Source: Verrucomicrobiota bacterium | GTDB taxonomy: Bacteria > Verrucomicrobiota > Verrucomicrobiia > Chthoniobacterales > JAFAMB01 | Assembly (NCBI GenBank): GCA_019247695.1 | Contig: JAFBAP010000089.1 | Span: 1-59,637 of the forward strand | Length of the DNA: 59,637 nt | Direction of reading: 5' to 3' | In this document: positions 1 through 58,025 of the stretch, in pieces | Numbering within the stretch: position 1 is the stretch's first letter | How the letters are laid out: the number at the start of each line of letters is the position of its first letter | Notes under the pieces: generated by a model | The model's input: the letters and a program-made list of their open reading frames with translations, nothing else | Database searches by the model: none | What the model was told of the DNA's origin: nothing | Made by a program: the position numbers and the translations under genes

Positions 1-199
1 CGCCGAACTCCGAACGCCGAACTCCGAACGCCGAACGCCGAACTCCGAACGCTTTCCCCTTCTTCCTCTTCCTCTTCCTCTTCCCGCCGTGGTCGCCGTG
101 GCTCGCCGTGTTCGCCGTGTGAACTCTTACGTTGCGCCCGCCAAACCCGCTGTGCCCGCCGTGTGACCGAACTCCGAACTCCGAACTCCGAACTCCGAA
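1..199. repeat. Intergenic mosaic repeat: A heptamers, pyrimidine tract, B, A
   Basis: Positions 1-50 are CCGAACT/CCGAACG heptamers (word A). Positions 51-83 are a TTCCTC-rich tract. Positions 84-166 are word B, a 9-base-period CGCCGTGGT-like array followed by GTGCCCGCC-like units. Positions 167-199 are four more CCGAACT copies plus one degenerate copy. The array stops two bases before the nudC stop codon. The window edge truncates it on the left. Confidence 0.9.
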
Positions 200-6886: not shown

Positions 6887-7247
6887 TCCTGTGTTAAGCC
6901 AATGTCACCGTCGAACTGCTTGCGCCAACAAATATTACTCGGGAACGTCCCTAGTACGGCACTCAGGCAGGGGTTAACGAGGAGCGAGTAAGCGGGCACG
7001 ACGACAGAGTTCACACGGTCACACGGCGGGCACAGTGGGTGGGGCGGGCACAACGTAAGAGTTCACACGGCGACCACGGCGGAAAGAGGAAAGGGTTCGG
7101 GGTTCGGAGCCGGGAGATGTCACGAATGAAGAGGGAACCGACGCCGTTGTGAGGTGTCCCTCTTAATCTGTGTCAATCTGTGTAATCTGTGGATGTTTTC
7201 TCTCTTTTCTGCGTTCTCTGCGTGTTCTGCGGATGATTTCTTGTTCG
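6887..7247. repeat. Intergenic mosaic repeat: B', A', C', D'
   Basis: This 361-base spacer has no credible gene. Word B in reverse (6992-7084) is followed by two or three reversed A heptamers (about 7095-7115), reversed C (7162-7194, TCTGTGTAATCTGTGG) and reversed D (7200-7240, TTCTGCGTTCTCTGCG). It lies upstream of the MFS gene and downstream of the Mla operon, both on the minus strand, so any promoter for the exporter lies in or next to the repeat. Confidence 0.9.
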
Positions 7248-13915: not shown

Positions 13916-14464
13916 AGGGGGAAAGGATCCGGGTAACTTGGACTCGTTTAAAGACGCTGCACTCTAGCCGGTTATTCGATTGTCCCCCGCCTTGTGGATT
14001 CAGTCACACCACGGGCACAGCGGGTTTGGCGGGCATAACGACTGAGTTCACACGGTCACACGGCGGCCGCAGCGGGGGTGGCGGGCACAACGACTGAGTT
14101 CACACGGCGAACACGGCGGCCCACGGCGGGAAGACAGAAATCAGCCGCAGAACACGCAGAAGAACGCAGAAAAGAGGATCCATCCACAGATTACACAGAT
14201 TGACACAGATTAAGGTCACACGGCGGCAACTCCAAGGTTGACACTCGCACCCAACCCCCATGCTGCCGCTCCGAACTCCGAACTCCGAACTCCGAACTCC
14301 GAACTCCGAACTCCGAACTCCGAACTCCGAACTCCGAACTCCGAACTCGTTCCCCTTCTTCCCGCCGTGGTCGCCGTGGTTCGCCGTGTTCGCCGTGTGA
14401 ACTCTTCCGTCGTGTCCGCCCTCCTCGCTGCGCCCGCTGTGTGACCGTGTGCCCGTGTGAACTC
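13916..14464. repeat. Large composite intergenic repeat B'-D-C-H-A(11)-B
   Basis: No gene is visible here. After about 80 unique bases the spacer holds reversed B, duplicated (14004-14133), D (14138-14177, CCGCAGAACACGCAGAAG), C (14178-14214), linker H (14215-14270), eleven perfect CCGAACT copies (14271-14347) and forward B (14352-14464), which continues into the helicase gene to about 14509. Because B' and B face each other, the whole spacer is an imperfect palindrome with distinct words in the loop. Any MATE promoter must lie in the unique part next to 13916-14000. Confidence 0.92.
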
Positions 14465-16468
14465 TTACGTTGTGCCCGCCAAACCCGCTGTGCCCGCCGT
14501 GTGACCGTGCAACCGCGCCACGAACTCCGATTCTCGGGAATGCACCACCGCTAAGTAATCTTCCGCCCGGGTAAGGGCCACATAAAAGAGGGCTTCCTGT
14601 TCCTCGGGTGCGCGGTTAAGCCAACCTGCCTGCGGCAGGATATCGGCCCACAGAAAAACCACGGCTTTAAATTGCAATCCTTTCGCGTGAAAAATGTTGA
14701 GCAGCTTAACGCCGGGCTCGTTGACCCGGGTGCGTGCGGCTGTATCCGCCCGGTTACTCAGCCAGATAAAAGGGATGGCTTTGGCGTTAAGGTCACGGCG
14801 GAACTGGGCGAAGGTTTCGGTCAGATCCTGCAGCACCGCCGGCACCAGCACCCCGATGTCAGCCGGACGAAGCGGACGAGAAAGCTGCCGGGTGCCGAAT
14901 CTGCCCCGGAGTAAACCGGCGATCAAGTCGACGGCGTGCGCGCACTCATCGAGCCGATCCTTTGCCCGAATCACCACCGGCGGCACCCCGCTTGAACGCG
15001 CCGCTTGCGCATGGTCAACGGCGACCGGGCTCACCCCATCGTCCTCCCAGTCCTCCGTCCGGGCAAACGGCGCCGCGAACCCCATGATCTCGCGGGCGTT
15101 CCGATAACTCTTGCGCAGGTAGAGCGTACGGCCCTGAACCGAAAACCCGAGGCTGCTCCAACGGGTACGCCGCCTGCCATAGAGGCCCTGGTTGCCATCG
15201 CCCGCAATCAGAAGGTCTCCGTGCTCGGGATTGTGCAGCAGGCAGCGCGCGCATCGAAACCAGACCGGATCAAAATCCTGGGCTTCGTCGATCAATACCG
15301 CGTCATAACGAAGTTCAGGGGCGACGATCCGGAACCGTGCCAGCAACCGCCGGCCGAGTTCGCTTTGCGGCTCCGCCGGGTGGGTTCGCCGAATCACGCC
15401 GTAGTCACGGGCGAGCTTATCGAAGTGCCGGACGGTGATTAACTCGCCTGCTCCGTGCAGGGCACGCTCGAGATAACTGCCAAGCGAGACGTTGAAACAG
15501 ATTATCAGGACGCGCCGGCCGGCTCCTTGAGCCAGGAGGCGCGCCCGCGAGACCAGCACGATCGTTTTGCCCGACCCGGCAGCCCCGAACATCAGGCGGG
15601 GGCCGGACCCCGGATCGCGAACGGCGAGTTCCTGTTCCAGGTCGAGCACCCTGAAATCAAGTAAACCCTTTTCGGAGGATTCCACCATTCCCGGCCGGGG
15701 GACGCTGACCACTTCGACGGCGATCTCATCGACAACCGCGGCCTTCTCCGGCGTTGACGGTCCAAGCCGCAACCATGGCACGCCGGGTACAGCGGTTTCC
15801 GCCGGAGGAACCACCCGGGCGGCGGACGGGACCGCCACCGGACCTCCCAGGCTCGAGATCAGCAACTCCGGATGAAGGATTGCCCGAAGCGTTTTTACCT
15901 GAAATTCGGTCATCACCGGAAACGGCCAGCTCGGGTGGAAGAACCGGCCCAAACCGGTTGAGGCCTGATTGCCGAAGGCCGCCTCCAATTCGTCGCCGGT
16001 AATCACATCCGGTGCGGAAAAGAGAGCGTTCCAGCCTGAACCAGCCAACTGGCTACGGGTGAGGTTTGACAGCACCGCCAAGGCAGCAAGAGGAAAAAAG
16101 AATTGGTCGTCGGGTTGGAGGAGGTGCTGCGCCCATAAACGTTGCCGGCAACGCTCCTGGAGGTCATCCAGGTAAGTCCGCATTTCCTGCCGCGGGTGTT
16201 CGCAGGAACGAATTCGTCCCTGGCGATCCTTCACCGTGATCCGCTCATGGTTGCCGCCGATCAGGTTTTCCGGGAGCCATCCTCGGACGTCGATCGCCAG
16301 CAGACCCTGCCCGGGGTCGATCACGACGAAAGCCGGGTGCCGGCGCCTGAGATTTGCCTCGTAGTAAACGATGCAATCGGTGGCCAGATGGCGACGCAAA
16401 AGTTCATGGATGCGCTTTTCAGCGTCACTCGCGTGGTTTGGCAACCGGCCAGGGACACAAACCGCCAT
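14465..16468 (-). CDS. NERD-domain UvrD/Rep-like helicase
   Basis: The 667-residue protein joins an N-terminal nuclease-related domain (about 10-115, with YYEANL, FVVIDPGQGLLAIDVRG) to a superfamily 1 helicase. Helicase marks are Walker A GAAGSGKT near residue 300, Walker B VLIDEAQDF near 392, AGDGNQGLYG, LRKSYRN, LLNIFHAKGLQFK near 597 and LFYVALTRAEDYL near the C-terminus. I prefer the ATG at 16468, because MAVCVPGRLP directly precedes the domain; an ATG at 16594 is possible. The last 14 residues ([14 protein letters not shown]) and the TAA stop are encoded by repeat word B, so the native C-terminus appears to have been replaced or extended by the repeat. Confidence 0.88.
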   Translation of the reverse strand: MAVCVPGRLPNHASDAEKRIHELLRRHLATDCIVYYEANLRRRHPAFVVIDPGQGLLAIDVRGWLPENLIGGNHERITVKDRQGRIRSCEHPRQEMRTYLDDLQERCRQRLWAQHLLQPDDQFFFPLAALAVLSNLTRSQLAGSGWNALFSAPDVITGDELEAAFGNQASTGLGRFFHPSWPFPVMTEFQVKTLRAILHPELLISSLGGPVAVPSAARVVPPAETAVPGVPWLRLGPSTPEKAAVVDEIAVEVVSVPRPGMVESSEKGLLDFRVLDLEQELAVRDPGSGPRLMFGAAGSGKTIVLVSRARLLAQGAGRRVLIICFNVSLGSYLERALHGAGELITVRHFDKLARDYGVIRRTHPAEPQSELGRRLLARFRIVAPELRYDAVLIDEAQDFDPVWFRCARCLLHNPEHGDLLIAGDGNQGLYGRRRTRWSSLGFSVQGRTLYLRKSYRNAREIMGFAAPFARTEDWEDDGVSPVAVDHAQAARSSGVPPVVIRAKDRLDECAHAVDLIAGLLRGRFGTRQLSRPLRPADIGVLVPAVLQDLTETFAQFRRDLNAKAIPFIWLSNRADTAARTRVNEPGVKLLNIFHAKGLQFKAVVFLWADILPQAGWLNRAPEEQEALFYVALTRAEDYLAVVHSRESEFVARLHGHTAGTAGLAGTT

Positions 16469-16625
16469 AAGGATGGCCGAAGCGTACCGTAGCGACCATG
16501 AGGCTGTCGAGCCGCGTTGCGTGGCGCCACCTTTAAGGTAGACCCCCCATTGTTCTATCCGCCCTACCATCGTGCGGGCTTCTTCCCATTGCACTTTCAG
16601 CCGCCTTGCGTGAAGCAGTCTTAGT

Positions 16626-17627: not shown

Positions 17628-17779
17628 AATGCCATAAATGGAAGAGGGTAACGGGTAACGGGTGGAAGGGCACGGGCCGTCGAAGTCACCCCTGAGCGGC
17701 ATATACTCGACGCGACACCCGACACCCGGCACCCGTTACTCGTTACCCGCCACTATTTTCCATTTGTGGCATTCCCCAC
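17628..17779. repeat. Compact palindromic repeat F-E-core-G'/E'-F'
   Basis: Just after the reductase stop comes word F (AATGCCATAAATGG), two GGGTAAC heptamers (E, 17646-17666), a 30-base core containing CCCCTGAG and CATATACTCGACG, reversed G and E heptamers (17712-17752) and reversed F (CCATTTGTGGCATT, about 17759-17772). Reversed F ends eight bases before the ribBA stop codon. It is a complete small inverted-repeat element between convergent genes. Confidence 0.85.
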
Positions 17780-37909: not shown

Positions 37910-38532
37910 AAGATGCGGTCAATCCGCCCAGGCTGCAACCCGGCGGGCACACGGCGGGCACGGCGGGTTTGGCGGGCACAACGACAGAGTTCACACCGCG
38001 AACACGGCGGGCCACGGCGGAACGACTAAATCATCCGCAGAACACGCAGAAAAGAGGAAAGCATCCACAGATTACACAGCTTGACACAGATTAAGAGGAC
38101 CCGGCGGCAACTCTAAGGCCGAGACTCGCACCCACCCCCCACTCCGAACTCCGAACCCCGAACTCCGAACTCTCTCCTCTTCCCGCCGTGGCTCGCCGTG
38201 TTCGCCGTGTGAACTCTTACGTCGTGCCCGCCACCCCCGCCGTGCCCGCCGTGTGCCCTTAATCTGTGTCAATCTGTGTAATCTGTGGATGTTTTCTCGT
38301 TTCTGCGTTCGTCTGCGTGTTCTGCGGATGATTTATCTTCCCGCCGTGGTCGCCGTGGCTCGCCGTGTGAACTCAGTCGTTGTGCCCGCCTTTTCGCCGT
38401 GCCCGCCGTGTGACCGTGTGACCCTGGCCCGACAATCGGGATGTCCACCCACCCTTGGACTCGCTCCCTGGGTTGCGCCCGGGCGGAATTAAAATAGCGT
38501 ATACGTTCCCGGGAAATCCCGGTCAGCAAAAC
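37910..38532. repeat. Composite repeat between divergent genes: B'-D-C-H-A-B-C'-D'-B
   Basis: This spacer holds two word series. Reversed B (37943-38020), D (38025-38056), C (38060-38094), H-like linker (38100-38146), A heptamers (38147-38181) and B (38186-38259) form one palindrome. Reversed C (38260-38290), reversed D (38292-38336) and another B (38338-38424) follow. Both flanking genes point outward, so their promoters lie in or beside the repeats. The last 108 bases before the MFS start are unique, with an AT-rich patch (ATTAAAATAGCGTATACG) near 38488-38505. Confidence 0.9.
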
Positions 38533-42134: not shown

Positions 42135-43202
42135 ATGAACTCCACGCAGGACAACCTCGAACTGAAATCCGAGCCGGCTTATGCTCCTCCGATCGAAAAG
42201 CCTTCTCGCCTTAAATTGAATTTTTGCCCTGCCGGACAGAGCGGAAAAATCGGTGCAGCCGCGGCACGCTGGATACGGGCCCTGCCGGTGTTTCTACAAA
42301 TATCGGCGGCCGCCAGCGCTTTCGGCCAAGTGGCGCCGGTGCCTTGCAGTGACATGTTGCCGGACCTGACTCGCTGGCTGGCCAGGCAGACCAGGGGTGA
42401 TGAACATTCGACCCCCGTTGCCGGGACCGGGCTGGCCGGCTTCCTGCGCCAGGAGCGGCCTGATATTTACGGCCACTCAGCGCTCTTCCTCATGGACGCG
42501 CCCTCGCTGTCCCGTTATCTGGCCGAGCTTGCGCCGTACCTGCCCGCCATGCGCACCCTCGAGGGGCGTTGCCTGGACCAGGAGCCCAAGATTACCGAGG
42601 CATTGCGACGGCTTTTTCCCGATTTCGACCCGTCGCGCGTCCGGGTATCGCTGATGCTCTCGTTGTTCAGGTTCGATGCTAAGATCCCGCACGACCAACC
42701 TAACCAGCTCTGGCTTGGGCTGGACGGCATCGCGAAGCTGCACGGCCCAAACGGCCGGCTGGGCGTCCTCCTGGCGCACGAAAATTTTCATCTCTACCAT
42801 TTCCAGGTGAACCCGCAGCCGCATCGGGGTGAATCGGTACCGCTCTACCGCCAGGTCTGGCAGGAAGGCCTGGCCTGTTACATCTCGCACCTGCTCAATC
42901 CAGGTGCATCGATGGCCGATGTGCTGCTGGACCCGGATTTGGCCGCAAACGGTCCACGGTACGTATCGACCGTGGCTCGAGCCATGCTCAATGACCTGGA
43001 AGCGGATGATGATGCGGTAACGGCCCGCTACCTCAGTTACCACCGCGCCATGGGCGCCCTGCCCCCGAGAATGGGTTATCTCATCGGGTACGACGTGGCC
43101 GCCGCCTGCGCCGCCCGGACCCCCCTTTCTGAGTTGGTCCGCCTTCGGGGTAACGGCTTACGGCGAATCGTGCAGCGGGCGGTTCGGACCCTCAGCCGGT
43201 GA
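42135..43202 (+). CDS. Putative secreted zinc metallopeptidase with HExxH motif
   Basis: The 355-residue protein has a hydrophobic stretch at about 48-66 (WIRALPVFLQISAAASAFG), which may be a signal anchor after a long N-terminus. It has the metalloprotease motif HENFH at residues 215-219 (LLAHENFHLYHF). A glutamate at 244 in VWQEGLACY, 25 residues after the second His, fits a third zinc ligand of a gluzincin-type site. It resembles DUF2268-like predicted peptidases in the HExxH and WxEGLA arrangement, but I cannot assign a named family. Its 5' side lies 19 bases from the possible small secreted gene. Confidence 0.72.
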   Translation: MNSTQDNLELKSEPAYAPPIEKPSRLKLNFCPAGQSGKIGAAAARWIRALPVFLQISAAASAFGQVAPVPCSDMLPDLTRWLARQTRGDEHSTPVAGTGLAGFLRQERPDIYGHSALFLMDAPSLSRYLAELAPYLPAMRTLEGRCLDQEPKITEALRRLFPDFDPSRVRVSLMLSLFRFDAKIPHDQPNQLWLGLDGIAKLHGPNGRLGVLLAHENFHLYHFQVNPQPHRGESVPLYRQVWQEGLACYISHLLNPGASMADVLLDPDLAANGPRYVSTVARAMLNDLEADDDAVTARYLSYHRAMGALPPRMGYLIGYDVAAACAARTPLSELVRLRGNGLRRIVQRAVRTLSR

Positions 43203-43663
43203 ATAAATGCCACAAATGAAGAGTGACGGGTAACGGGTAACGAGTGTCGGGTGTCGGTCACACTGCGGGCACGACGACTGAGTTCACACGGCGAACACGG
43301 CGGGCCACGGCGGGAAGAGGAAGAGTTCGGGGCTCGGCGTTCGGAGTTCGGAGGCGTCGTAGAACCGGATCCGATCTCCCCCGAGGGTCAGGCTCACCCC
43401 GCGGAAGACAAAATCATCCGCAGAACACGCAGAAAAACGCAGAAAAAGAATCCCAAACGCTGGACTTGACATCGGCAGCCGGCACCCATGCTGCAACTCC
43501 GAACTCCGAACTCGTTTCCCTTCCCCCTCTTCCCGCCGTGTTCGCCGTGGCTCGCCGTGTTCGCCGTGTGAACTCTTACGTCGTGCCCGCCAGCCCCGCC
43601 GTGCCCGCCGTGTGACGGTAATCTGTGTAATCTGTGGACGTTTTCTCTGTTCTGCGGATGATC
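43203..43663. repeat. Composite intergenic repeat F-E-B'-A'-I-D-H-A-B-C'-D'
   Basis: After the stop lie F (43207-43220), E (43225-43246), reversed B (43256-43318) and reversed A (43324-43349). Next come word I (GGAGGCGTCGTAGAACCGG, shared with position 52504), D (43405-43450), a short H-like linker (43465-43500), A (43498-43513), B (43528-43617), a short reversed C (43618-43640) and reversed D. The convergent DUF3500 gene ends within the D' boundary, with a TGA stop just after GATCATCCGCAG read on its strand. Confidence 0.9.
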
Positions 43664-49495: not shown

Positions 49496-49767
49496 AGGTG
49501 ATTAGAATGCCACAAACTCGGTGGCGGGTAACTAACTGGCAACTCGTAACTGGTAGCGCGTAACGGGTACCGGTTAAAGTTCGGAGTTCGGAGTTCGGAG
49601 TTCGGGGTTCGGAGTTCGGGGTTCGGGGTTCGGCGCTCGGTCACACGGCGGGCACGGCGGGTTGGGCGGGCGCAACGTAAGAGTTCACACGGCGAACACG
49701 GCGGACCACGGCGACCACGGCGGGAAGAGGAGGAGGAGGCGTTAGGCGTTACCAGACCAGCTACCCG
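49496..49767. repeat. Composite intergenic repeat F-E-A'-B'
   Basis: F (AATGCCACAAACTCGG, from 49507) is followed by GGTAACT/GTAACGG heptamers (E, 49520-49577), eight reversed A copies (49578-49636, variants TTCGGAG/TTCGGGG), and reversed B (49641-49730). It ends at a CTACCCGTTA word (49761-49770) that includes the DedA-like gene's TAA stop. Both neighbours are on the minus strand. Confidence 0.88.
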
Positions 49768-51143: not shown

Positions 51144-52469
51144 GTGGGCAAGGCAACGATGCAGGCGGCCACGACGCAGAGGTCCGTTGAACACCGGACC
51201 ATTCAGGTTTTGAGTGAAATTTTTGCGGGTTGCCCCCTCGAGAGGGTAGCCGTGCGGCTTTGGGATGGAACGCCGTGGCCTGATGGACGGCCCCGTCCTG
51301 CGACGATCGTGCTTAAAGACCCTGATGCGCTCCGCCGGATGTTCCTGCCCGGCTCGGAAATCGGTCTGGCTGAAGCCTACCTGTATGATGATTTTGACCT
51401 CGAAGGGGACATCGAGGCGGCGTTCGACATCGGCGATTTTCTGCTGACCCGGGTCCGGGACTGGCGGACGAAGCTCAAGCTGGCGGCGGCGCTGCTGGCT
51501 TTGCCCGGGGAAAGCTCGGGGCTGCGGGCGGCCGCAGGGCGGTTCCTGCCCGATTTGCGCGGCAAACGTCATTCGCGCGAGCGGGACCGGCGGTCGGTCA
51601 CATTTCACTACAATGTGTCGAATGATTTTTACCGGCTCTGGCTGGACTCCCGGATGGTCTATTCCTGCGCGTATTTTAAATCGCCGGATGACAGTCTCGA
51701 TGCGGCGCAGGAACGCAAGCTCGACTACATCTGCCGCAAGCTGCGCCTGCGCCCCGGCCAGCGGTTACTCGACATCGGTTGCGGCTGGGGCGGGCTGGTC
51801 ATGTACGCTGCCCAACGCTATGGGGTAAGCGCACTCGGCGTCAGCTTGAGCGAACCGCAGGTTGAGTGGGCCCGCGCGCGCATCGCCGAGGCCGGCCTGA
51901 AAGATCGGGTCGCGGTGGAACTGCGCGACTATCGCGAGATCGCCCCGGATTGCGATGGCCCGTGCGACGCCGTGGTAAGCGTCGGGATGGCTGAGCACGT
52001 CGGACGCGAGCGGCTGAAGGACTACTTCAAAATCGCCTTCGATACCCTTAAACCCGGCGGCGTGTTCCTGAATCACGCCATCGGCGAGGGTGTGGCGGCA
52101 TTGCCCGTCGACCCCAATGATTCGTTCGTCTATCGTATTGTTTTTCCCGACGGCGACATCCCGCCGCTGCCCGCTGTCCTCGGGGCCGCCGAGCCGGCGG
52201 GGTTCGAAATCCGCGATGTTGAAAATCTGCGTGAGCATTATGCGCTCACCCTGCGCCATTGGGTGCGACGGTTGGAAGCGCATTACACCGAAGCGCGATT
52301 CTGCGTGGACGAACCCACCTACCGCACCTGGCGGCTCTACATGGCCGGGTCAGCCCACAACTTCGCGCGCGGTCAAATTGCCGTTTACCAGACGCTGTTG
52401 GCGAAAGTCGACCAGGCGGGCAACGCGCGCCTGCCTCTGACGCGCGACGATTGGTATCACACGGCATAG
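51144..52469 (+). CDS. cfa: Cyclopropane-fatty-acyl-phospholipid synthase
   Basis: The 441-residue enzyme adds a methylene group from S-adenosylmethionine to unsaturated phospholipid acyl chains. Visible are the SAM motif LLDIGCGWGGL near residue 212, FHYNVSNDFYRLWLD near 153, and VSVGMAEHVGRERLKDYF in the active-site region. The N-terminal 110 residues match the usual Cfa extra domain. Translation can begin at the GTG at 51144 or the ATG at 51159, the latter five bases after AAGG. It is single and divergent from the GNAT gene. Confidence 0.93.
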   Translation: MGKATMQAATTQRSVEHRTIQVLSEIFAGCPLERVAVRLWDGTPWPDGRPRPATIVLKDPDALRRMFLPGSEIGLAEAYLYDDFDLEGDIEAAFDIGDFLLTRVRDWRTKLKLAAALLALPGESSGLRAAAGRFLPDLRGKRHSRERDRRSVTFHYNVSNDFYRLWLDSRMVYSCAYFKSPDDSLDAAQERKLDYICRKLRLRPGQRLLDIGCGWGGLVMYAAQRYGVSALGVSLSEPQVEWARARIAEAGLKDRVAVELRDYREIAPDCDGPCDAVVSVGMAEHVGRERLKDYFKIAFDTLKPGGVFLNHAIGEGVAALPVDPNDSFVYRIVFPDGDIPPLPAVLGAAEPAGFEIRDVENLREHYALTLRHWVRRLEAHYTEARFCVDEPTYRTWRLYMAGSAHNFARGQIAVYQTLLAKVDQAGNARLPLTRDDWYHTA

Positions 52470-52790
52470 AAGTTCGGGGTTCGGCGGTCGGAGTTCGGAG
52501 TTCGGAGGCGCTGTACAACCGGGTCCACCTTTTCCGTGGAACACGGCGAGAAGATTAAATCATCCGCAGAACACGCAGAAGAACGCAGAAAAGCTGAAAC
52601 ATCCACAGATTACACAGATTGACACAGATTAAGGTCACACGGCGGAAAGCCATGCCGCCCGGCGCCTTTTCATTTGTGGCATTTTTCCGCTTGTGGCATT
52701 CTCTTTCGCTCCGAACCCCGAACGCCGAACCCCGAACTCTTTCCTCTTCCCGCCGTGGTCGCCGTGGCTCGCCGTGTTCGCCGTGTGACC
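52470..52790. repeat. Composite repeat A'-I-D-C-F'-A-B
   Basis: Reversed A (52472-52505) is followed by word I (GGAGGCGCTGTACAACCGGG, matching 43347), D (52553-52592), C (52596-52633), reversed F twice (CATTTGTGGCATT, CTTGTGGCATT; 52671-52700), A (52709-52739) and forward B from 52746. B continues into the acyl-CoA dehydrogenase gene to about 52845. Confidence 0.9.
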
Positions 52791-54482
52791 TCAGTCGTTG
52801 TGCCCGCTCTCTTCCGTCGTGCCCGCCGTGTGACCTGTTCTAGGCTGGGCCCGCTCGAGCAGCAGTGTCACGCCCTCTTCCGAGCGCAATGTTCCGAATG
52901 CCAGGCCGGGTCTCTCCGTCAGACGGGCGGCGCAGAAAAGGTCCGCCACCGGCTGGTTCCCGCTTCGGATCAAGGCGGACGCTTCCAAAGCGAGCGCCAA
53001 CTGTTCCACCAACCTGCGGGCGCCGAACTCCGCACCCGCGATCTCCTTTGCCGAAAGAAGGGACGCGATAAAATGATCAAAAATGGAGTTTGCCCCCGTC
53101 GTTGACGCAAGCTCCTGCCGGAGTGCGGCGATGGTCTCCGGATCCTTTTGCATCGCCTTTAAGACGTCGAGGCATTGGACGTTACCGGCGCCTTCCCAGA
53201 GAGAATTCAGGGGAGCATCCCGGTAGAGGCGCGGAAGCGGCGATTCTTCGATGTACCCGTTTCCGCCGAGGCATTCCAACGCTTCGGCGACGATTACGGG
53301 CGTCCGTTTAGTGACCCAGTACTTGGCGATGGCCGTCGCGATGCGGGCAAACTTTTGCTCGCGTGGATCTTCCTTCGAACGATCGAACGCACGCGCGAGG
53401 CGAATCGCCAGGGTGGTCGCCGCTTCGGATTCCAGGCATAAGTCAGCCAGCACATTTCGCATGAGCGGCTGATCGATCAACCGGCGGCCGAACGCCGACC
53501 GGTGAGCCGCATGATGCGTGGCTTCGGCGACGGCCTTGCGCACCGCTGCCGCCGATCCGAGCGCGCAATCCAGGCGCGTGTGGCGCACCATCTCCATGAT
53601 CGTTGCGACCCCGCGGCCTTCTTCACCGACCAATCGTGCCGACGCGCGCCGGAACTCCACTTCGCCGGAGGCATTCGAGCGGTTACCCAGTTTGTCCTTC
53701 AAACGGAGAAGATGAAACGCGTTCCTGGTTCCGTCCGAACGCCACCGGGGCATCAGAAAACAGGAAAGCCCGCCCACCGTTTGTGCTAGGATAAAGAAGG
53801 CGTCACACATCGGCGCGGAGCAAAACCATTTGTGCCCGGTGAGGATGTACTCCCGGCCGGGACCGCCGCCATCGACGGATTCCGCCCACGTCGTGTTCGC
53901 CCGGACGTCGCTGCCGCCCTGCCGCTCCGTCATGCCCATTCCGAAGAGGACACCGCCTTTTTCGGACGCCGGGATGGCTCGAGGGTCGTAAACGGACGAC
54001 AGGGCCCGGGGTTCCCATTCCGCCACGAGCTCCGGCTGCAGGCGGAGCGACGGGATGGCCGCAAACGTCATCGTCAGGGGACAACTGGAGCCTTCGTCGA
54101 CCTGGTGCCGGAGCATCAGCAAGACGGCCCGTGCGACCTGAGCTCCCGGACGGCTTTCCACCCAGGGTAACGAATGACACCGCGCCTCGATCCCGATACG
54201 CATCAACTCATGGTAGGCCGGGTGGTAGACGACCTCGTCGATACGGTAACCGAATCGATCATGGGTTCTCAGTTCCGGTGCAAACCGATTTGCCTGGACG
54301 CCCAGGTTGATCGTTTCCGGCCGGCCTAAAAACGCTCCGAACCTGGATGCGTCCGCGTTGATCCAGCCGGCGCCTTCGCGTTGAACCGCCTCCTTCAAGG
54401 CGGAGTCGCTCTCGAAGAGGTTGTAATCTTCCAACGGCGGCGGCTGGTTGAAAACGGCATCGGGAGGGTAAAGGGCGCCCAT
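52791..54482 (-). CDS. Acyl-CoA dehydrogenase, AidB-like
   Basis: The 563-residue flavoenzyme has the AidB-type layout: N-terminal helices, GMGMTERQGGSDVRANTT (about 173-190, FAD/substrate region), a middle beta domain, and ALECLGGNGYIEESPLPRLYRDAP with SLWEGAGNVQCLDVLKAM in the C-terminal helices. The AidB group may protect DNA or oxidise isovaleryl-type substrates. The last 14 residues (GHTAGTTEESGHND) and the TGA stop are encoded by repeat word B, in the same register as the helicase tail at 14465-14509. It lies downstream of xylB by 78 bases. Confidence 0.9.
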   Translation of the reverse strand: MGALYPPDAVFNQPPPLEDYNLFESDSALKEAVQREGAGWINADASRFGAFLGRPETINLGVQANRFAPELRTHDRFGYRIDEVVYHPAYHELMRIGIEARCHSLPWVESRPGAQVARAVLLMLRHQVDEGSSCPLTMTFAAIPSLRLQPELVAEWEPRALSSVYDPRAIPASEKGGVLFGMGMTERQGGSDVRANTTWAESVDGGGPGREYILTGHKWFCSAPMCDAFFILAQTVGGLSCFLMPRWRSDGTRNAFHLLRLKDKLGNRSNASGEVEFRRASARLVGEEGRGVATIMEMVRHTRLDCALGSAAAVRKAVAEATHHAAHRSAFGRRLIDQPLMRNVLADLCLESEAATTLAIRLARAFDRSKEDPREQKFARIATAIAKYWVTKRTPVIVAEALECLGGNGYIEESPLPRLYRDAPLNSLWEGAGNVQCLDVLKAMQKDPETIAALRQELASTTGANSIFDHFIASLLSAKEIAGAEFGARRLVEQLALALEASALIRSGNQPVADLFCAARLTERPGLAFGTLRSEEGVTLLLERAQPRTGHTAGTTEESGHND

Positions 54483-57490: not shown

Positions 57491-58025
57491 GGAAGAAAAT
57501 GCCACAGAGTGTCGGGTGCCGGGTGTCGGGTGTCGGGTGTCGGGTGCCGGTCACACGGCGGCCACAGCGGGGCGGCGGGCACAACGTAAGAGTTCACACG
57601 GCGAACACGGCGGGAAGATTAAATCATCCGCAGAACACGCAGAAGGACGCAGAAAAGAGAAAACATCCACAGATCACACAGATTGACACAGATTAAGGGG
57701 ACCTGGCGGCAACTCAAAGGTTGACACTCGCACCCACCCCCCATGATGCCGCTCCGAACCCTTTCCCCTCCTCCCTCTTCCCGCCGTGGTCGCCGTGGCC
57801 CGCCGTGTTCGCCGTGTGAACTCTTACGTTGTGCCCGCCAAACCCGCTGTGCCCGCCGTGTGACCGAACTCCGAACTCCGAACTCCGCACCCGTTACCCG
57901 TTACCCGTTACCCGTTACCCGCCATTCTTCATTTGTGGCATTTCTCCATGTCCACAACTCTACCGGGATGTGTACTTTTCGTTTTGAACAAAACTGCGAC
58001 TTGTGCAAGGGTCGCTTTCTCCGTT
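57491..58025. repeat. Full composite repeat F-G-B'-D-C-H-B-A-E-F' between divergent genes
   Basis: This is the most complete mosaic. F (57497-57508), G (57509-57552), B' (57551-57615), D (57620-57660), C (57661-57697), H (57712-57757), a short pyrimidine tract, B (57779-57863), A (57864-57890), E (57890-57922) and F' (57925-57942) follow in order. The outer F/F' and inner B'/B pairs are inverted. The remaining 80 bases before the sulfurtransferase ATG are unique. Confidence 0.92.

Follow-up and report, generated by a model that had tools for sequence, protein, structure and literature searches.

Why does an AidB-type acyl-CoA dehydrogenase end in a stretch of dispersed repeat DNA, and what brought the repeat to the end of the gene? 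The question arises from a convergent gene pair in the window, the whole analysed stretch of 59,637 nucleotides, which is contig 89 of a 5.19 Mb Verrucomicrobiota assembly fragmented into 191 contigs. The features discussed below are collected in Table 1.

A repeat-encoded tail on the AidB-type dehydrogenase

Profile searches found both the AidB_N and the acyl-CoA dehydrogenase domains in this protein, placing it among the AidB-type enzymes (Pfam AidB_N, 4.5e-59; NCBIfam NF008594, 559.8 bits versus a cut-off of 545). Its translation ends in ...RAQPRTGHTAGTTEESGHND before the stop. The last 14 codons and the stop are repeat DNA, with GHTAGTTEESGHND and the TGA spanning exactly positions 52791-52835. 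A 22-nt piece of the tail DNA has 16 copies in the window, against an expectation of 0.00 and none in 100 shuffles, and a 99-nt query gave 48 scored places genome-wide and 449 first-look candidates. The four same-family relatives that reach the end of the gene (76-81% identical) stop 3-4 residues past the conserved core, with the termini LQKG, QKG, LRG and INGP, and no repeat words were seen downstream of these four stops. The tail is absent from all 80 loci of relatives, a few of which are cut by contig ends. The first-pass annotation, in which the tail had been read as repeat-encoded, is thus borne out by the repeat words themselves and by the relatives that reach the gene end.

Immediately ahead of the repeat, at positions 52836-52847, the minus strand carries an out-of-frame TAG within CAGCCTAGAACA. 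This TAG is likely what remains of the gene's original stop. On the other side of the gap, the TAG stop of the cyclopropane-fatty-acid synthase-type gene adjoins the heptamer arm of the same cluster. The sequence suggests the following course of events: a dispersed inverted-repeat element would have settled hard against the 3′ end of the dehydrogenase gene, the gene would have lost its own stop, probably through a small frameshift, and translation would then read through into one repeat arm and end at the first in-frame stop there. We infer a frameshift rather than an insertion into the coding part because the out-of-frame TAG survives ahead of the repeat.

Table 1. Features of the window, with positions counted from its first nucleotide; + and - after a word letter give the strand of the word.
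Positions	Strand	Feature	Basis or remark
52791..54482	minus	AidB-type acyl-CoA dehydrogenase gene, 563 aa	ORF translation, profile matches
52791..52835	minus	C-terminal tail GHTAGTTEESGHND with its TGA, encoded by repeat words A and B	Translation, repeat comparison
51309..52469	plus	Cyclopropane-fatty-acid synthase-type gene, convergent with the dehydrogenase gene	Pfam CMAS 7.6e-91
52472..52835		Repeat cluster occupying the convergent gap	Word search
52472..52835		Plus words of this cluster: h+ 52472-52486, D+ 52562-52578, E+ 52602-52631, A+ 52633-52649	
52472..52835		Minus words of this cluster: F- 52671-52700, h- 52709-52723, C- 52749-52782, A-/B- 52774-52802, A- 52819-52835	
14465..16594	minus	UvrD-like (NERD+UvrD) helicase gene carrying a second such tail	
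14465..14506	minus	Helicase tail of 13 residues with its TAA, encoded by repeat words A and B	
14002..14506		Repeat cluster with two arms, at the 3′ end of the helicase gene	
57498..57942		Most complete nested cluster of the window, F+ A+ B+ A+ D+ E+ ... C- A- B- A- h- t- F-	
37945..38415		Two-arm repeat cluster	
43148..43617		Two-arm repeat cluster	
49506..49724		Cluster with a single repeat arm, F+ t+ h+ A+ B+ A+ C+	
6997..7234		Cluster of repeat words, B+ A+ B+ A+ h+ F+ E- D-	
17628..17773		Nested pair, F+ t+ t- F-	Gap 178 nt here versus 40 in the same-genus genome (empty site)
1..179		Cluster with a single repeat arm, at the contig end	

Repeat words and their nested architecture

The repeats were surveyed in 81 sequences, the window among them, which amount to 1.37 Mb of the genome and in which 894 genes were called with our own hexamer script. 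Masking gave 191 clusters with 28,325 bp, or 2.06% of the sample, a density that leans upward because some contigs had been picked for known matches and the sample is non-random. Only 666 of these base pairs lie inside the called genes, so that the repeats are almost wholly intergenic. They are built from words with an internal period of 7 to 11 nt: A, B and C (GGTCACACGGCGGGCAC ... GAGTTCACACGGCGAACACGG), D (ATCCGCAGAACACGCAG), E (CCACAGATTACACAGATT), F (AATGCCACAAATG) and the heptamers t (GGGTAAC) and h (GTTCGGA). The words keep a steady order within clusters. Neighbours of the same class on opposite strands within 600 nt point inward in 134 cases and outward in one, and the order of nesting is almost strict, with A outside h by 20 to 1. 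Tandem heptamers in intergenic gaps are known from the STRR repeats of cyanobacteria; unlike those, the heptamers here belong to inward-pointing nested pairs.

Comparison with the same-genus genome suggests how such nests arise. Usable flanks exist for 159 clusters, and the comparison yielded 17 rows matched to that genome, some of them repeated since the loci overlap. Three gaps are filled here and empty there, measuring 309 versus 56, 481 versus 72 and 178 versus 40 nt (G000 versus G001), with flanks too diverged to define a target-site duplication. Several other gaps are filled in both species, some with differing content, and one has an outer shell of F and t words common to both around insides that differ. 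The filled and empty gaps, together with the common shell around different insides, fit nested insertion.

Recurrence of tails at gene 3′ ends

Repeat-derived tails are real and recurrent in this genome. At least 12 nt of repeat form the 3′ end of 16 of the 894 called genes, and no called gene has as much at its 5′ end. The words in these tails are A/B/C in six genes, D/E in another six and heptamer arrays only in the remaining four, the last being less specific than the 12 long-word cases. Half of the long-word tails thus stem from words other than A/B/C (ESSAEH..., TDYTD). Counting any overlap, repeats touch 35 genes at the 3′ end, three at the 5′ end (by 1-7 nt) and two internally; one of the latter two is an alanine racemase, the final residues of which run into the frame of a GxxExxY gene.

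The second tailed gene of the window encodes a UvrD-like helicase, which matches the PADLOC candidate-defence model C3a187 (NERD+UvrD, 2.9e-63). According to the first-pass annotation, its tail and that of the dehydrogenase share one reading register. This stands for word A, read at offset 0 in both genes, and fails for word B, in which the helicase stops at TAA (GGC ACA ACG TAA) and the dehydrogenase at TGA (CAC AAC GAC TGA). Across the tails, four genes read word A at offset 0, two at offset 2 and one, a weak case, at offset 1; a fixed translation register is not supported by these offsets and the differing stop registers.

Four of the tailed genes were compared with their relatives, and no relative has the tail. 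In addition to the dehydrogenase, they include the helicase, for which the sole close relative found belongs to the same genus and is about 80% identical (two of 19 genomes matched, one of them the window's own). This relative ends in ARLTGNG, and its TAA stop sits inside a GGGTAAC heptamer array; hence, the helicase ends in a repeat in both species, but each time in a different one. The other two comparisons cover eight loci each, the own one included, out of 17 and 16 matched genomes, respectively: a GH75-type protein ends in ...ESSAEHSEHAEKRKHPQITQIDTD here versus TATPSPG in the same-genus relative, and a glycosyltransferase ends in ...RWKRAGTT here and differently in seven family relatives. 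The search for similar tails and the comparison with orthologue ends proposed in the first-pass annotation thus recovered tails elsewhere in the genome and no conserved tail in repeat-free relatives, in agreement with its suggestion that insertion at gene 3′ ends is recurrent.

Orientation and placement of the clusters

Of the words nearest to a 3′ end, 73 of 76 within 30 nt face away from the gene, as do 92 of 102 within 80 nt and 104 of 123 within 200 nt; the corresponding numbers at 5′ ends are 7 of 9, 25 of 29 and 51 of 63. In the sample of the same-genus genome (0.32 Mb, in part chosen for matches), the nearest word at 3′ ends faces away in 8 of 8 cases within 30 nt, 10 of 12 within 80 nt and 10 of 21 within 200 nt, with 11 facing toward the gene, and since the bias is gone at 200 nt, it is local there.

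Such placement might be expected if the repeats were functional 3′ elements, that is, terminators or mRNA stabilisers under selection, with the tails being a side effect. Clusters indeed abut 3′ ends closely (median distance 22 nt, versus 154 nt to 5′ ends) and are enriched in convergent gaps: among gaps of at least 150 nt, a cluster is present in 36 of the 87 convergent ones, compared with 60 of 207 (tandem) and 18 of 121 (divergent). However, single-arm clusters in tandem gaps are sense in 19 cases and antisense in 16, most gaps have no cluster, some of the occupied ones are empty in the same-genus relative, and an Rfam search of the window matched no family. We consider a function of this kind very improbable as the explanation of the repeats. 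The 3′-end bias could reflect selection against insertion into genes and promoters, with 3′ ends tolerated rather than targeted.

GxxExxY nuclease genes framed by the words

Word E occurs in order-level relatives as a clean inverted pair, which in one case encloses a gene read as GxxExxY. This family (PF13366, TIGR04256) is present in 43 of the 57 genomes searched, the own genome included, and the latter has two copies. Three proteins reach 132-144 bits with TIGR04256 (cut-off 35), and PF13366 scores are above 22 bits. Residues E38, Y41, E88 and K90 are invariant in 31 sequences and D78 is conserved in at least 90% of them, so that the D...ExK active site of PD-(D/E)XK nucleases is present; the GxxExxY proteins are predicted PD-(D/E)XK nucleases with an intact catalytic motif. 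A PDB sequence search with these proteins found no relative, and PADLOC has no defence model for them, the only match being a weak one to Cas4 (0.00086, for the copy L279). The gene shares the direction of the preceding gene in 19 of the 24 loci with a called upstream neighbour (binomial p 0.007). The proteins' own ends look repeat-encoded at L300, L303, L292 and L338 (e.g. ...NPVNLVNPV, SRLRVNQRIGG).

At 27 of 31 GxxExxY loci, mostly the best of each genome rather than all matches, the inverted pair around the gene exceeds the 99th percentile of 268 random controls with the same geometry from the same loci, and at 21 it exceeds every control; the remaining four fail the test. The two copies in this genome are framed by A/B/C-type words (L279) and by D-type words (L280), respectively, the genome's two main word families. 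Two patterns derived from frames in other genomes are frequent in just a few of the 57 genomes, among them those in which they frame the gene. A threefold CACCAAG was found in seven of the 57 genomes, with 105 matches in G030, 15 each in G028 and G037, seven in G056, five in G023, three in G014 and one in G012, versus one match for the reversed control; a GxxExxY gene is present in six of these genomes, and in G028, G023 and G030 it is framed by copies of the pattern. In G030, inverted CACCAAG pairs also form a tandem array with a period near 143 nt (G030:C5:114545-115777). A threefold GCGAAG was found in nine genomes, with 43 matches in G056 and 11 in G014, in both of which it frames GxxExxY, and 1-4 in the others (six matches for the reversed control). 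G012 and G018, with one pattern match each, have no GxxExxY match, which speaks against a cognate pairing of gene and word. Protein identity correlates with frame-word similarity (rho 0.387, permutation p 0.0005; 309 between-family pairs from 27 loci, four loci having been dropped at a frame score threshold of 30).

Could the gene be a passenger? In that case, the repeats would spread otherwise, by an unseen transposase or replication slippage, and their hairpins would serve as landing sites. Such a scenario draws on the presence of at least six word classes and only two GxxExxY genes in the genome, on the heptamer arrays t and h, which resemble slippage products, and on the nested architecture, which indicates that insertion into existing hairpins happens. 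On the other hand, a passenger would not need to match its site, and both the co-variation of word and protein across families and the fact that the two genes here have their frames from the two main long-word families, one each, therefore weigh against this explanation, which we regard as unlikely.

The family extends beyond the order. GxxExxY relatives were found on eight plasmid records from other phyla, and at three of these eight loci, in Sphingomonas parapaucimobilis, Bacteroides finegoldii and Bernardetia, the inverted frame is clearly above controls, as it is at one viral-contig locus. The Sphingomonas parapaucimobilis gene (L338) lies between fabD and fabG within a run of fatty-acid synthesis genes, and that of Bacteroides finegoldii directly behind radA. 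Scores are marginal at best for the frames in Treponema, Prevotella and Fusobacteria, and the frames in Persicobacter and Gemmatirosa are not above controls, the latter with a word-like hairpin just downstream of the gene. Scans of viral contigs for GxxExxY gave the one locus and thus no sign of a mainly phage-borne family.

Relationship to known systems

The closest parallel to a gene framed by its own dispersed repeat is the RAYT/REPIN system. In the accessible part of its description (Bertels and Rainey 2011, PMC3116915), a single gene is framed by a repeat dispersed in intergenic gaps, mostly as inverted doublets capable of forming hairpins, and gene and repeat are matched in each genome, as they are here. 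The dispersed extragenic inverted doublets of the present genome follow the REPIN pattern in their inward pairing and their near absence from genes, and the genome has two Y1_Tnp genes. Yet these words frame neither Y1_Tnp locus: they are missing from the 3.1 kb of one, and at the other there is only one h word, at the edge, together with an inverted repeat of unrelated sequence. It is thus extremely improbable that the repeats are REPs or REPINs moved by a RAYT (Y1 HUH) transposase, and we reject this origin. The second locus (L262), where the Y1_Tnp gene is framed by the different inverted repeat (...AGCCCAGGGTTCCACCCTGGG...), is possibly a separate RAYT pair. GxxExxY elements further differ from RAYT/REPIN in encoding a predicted PD-(D/E)XK nuclease instead of a Y1 HUH protein, and in the 7- to 11-nt word period, the nested shells and the abutment to 3′ ends, which are sometimes translated. 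As in MITEs, terminal inverted arms occur with and without the gene, and the gene-less forms would be non-autonomous.

Tails of this sort, taken by themselves, have precedents. Among the enterobacterial RU-1/RU-2/RU-3 elements, as far as the accessible text of Delihas (2007, PMC2759123) describes them, fusion of RU-1 to the amidase gene ECA3499 takes away the stop codon, so that the C-terminus extends beyond the conserved domain, the likeness being a repeat at a gene 3′ end that abolishes the stop and adds a tail. The present case differs in sequence and host and involves several classes of words and numerous genes of a single genome, and a link to GxxExxY is absent from that portion of the RU description. 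Rickettsia palindromic elements likewise supply peptide segments from one repeat family to unrelated proteins, according to the available portion of PMC10969869; they insert in frame within genes, whereas the repeats here lie nearly all outside genes and touch nearly only their 3′ ends. The TIGR04256 and PF13366 (PDDEXK_3) entries state no function beyond the nuclease superfamily and no repeat association, and the accessible text of PMC8934634 mentions GxxExxY as a neighbour gene. A literature search conducted mostly outside subscription papers found no report of a link between GxxExxY and repeats, nor of the literal repeat strings.

A proposed nuclease-driven mobile element

Framing and co-variation are explained most simply if the nuclease mobilises the repeats. 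A complete element would consist of inward-pointing words, a GxxExxY gene and the same words inverted, and the intergenic clusters would be its gene-less, miniature and often nested partners. Each GxxExxY protein would recognise its own word and drive the copying or insertion of word-bearing DNA, with gaps behind stop codons and earlier copies as targets. Against this stands the imbalance between the genome's two GxxExxY genes and its word classes; words F, t, h and E behave like the others and have no GxxExxY partner in this genome. The loci with frames not clearly above controls, four of the 31 and five of the eight on plasmids, also speak against it. On the sequence comparisons made here, we regard the combination of a read-through tail and repeats that are gene-less partners of nuclease-driven GxxExxY elements as fairly probable. 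The wider claim, on which we see the chances as evenly balanced, is that GxxExxY drives a widespread and undescribed kind of one-gene PD-(D/E)XK mobile DNA with inward periodic words, which settles behind stops, seeds nested miniature swarms and keeps rewriting the C-termini of neighbouring genes.

If true, this would supply both mechanism and name for an unexplained type of intergenic repeat (CACAGATTACACAGATT, CACCAAGGCACCAAG and similar) and would assign a function to the small nucleases of a family that so far has no assigned role. The tails also show a present-day route to new C-terminal peptides on unrelated proteins, the close relatives of which are still without them, and because such tail-less relatives exist, the early fate of the tails becomes testable.
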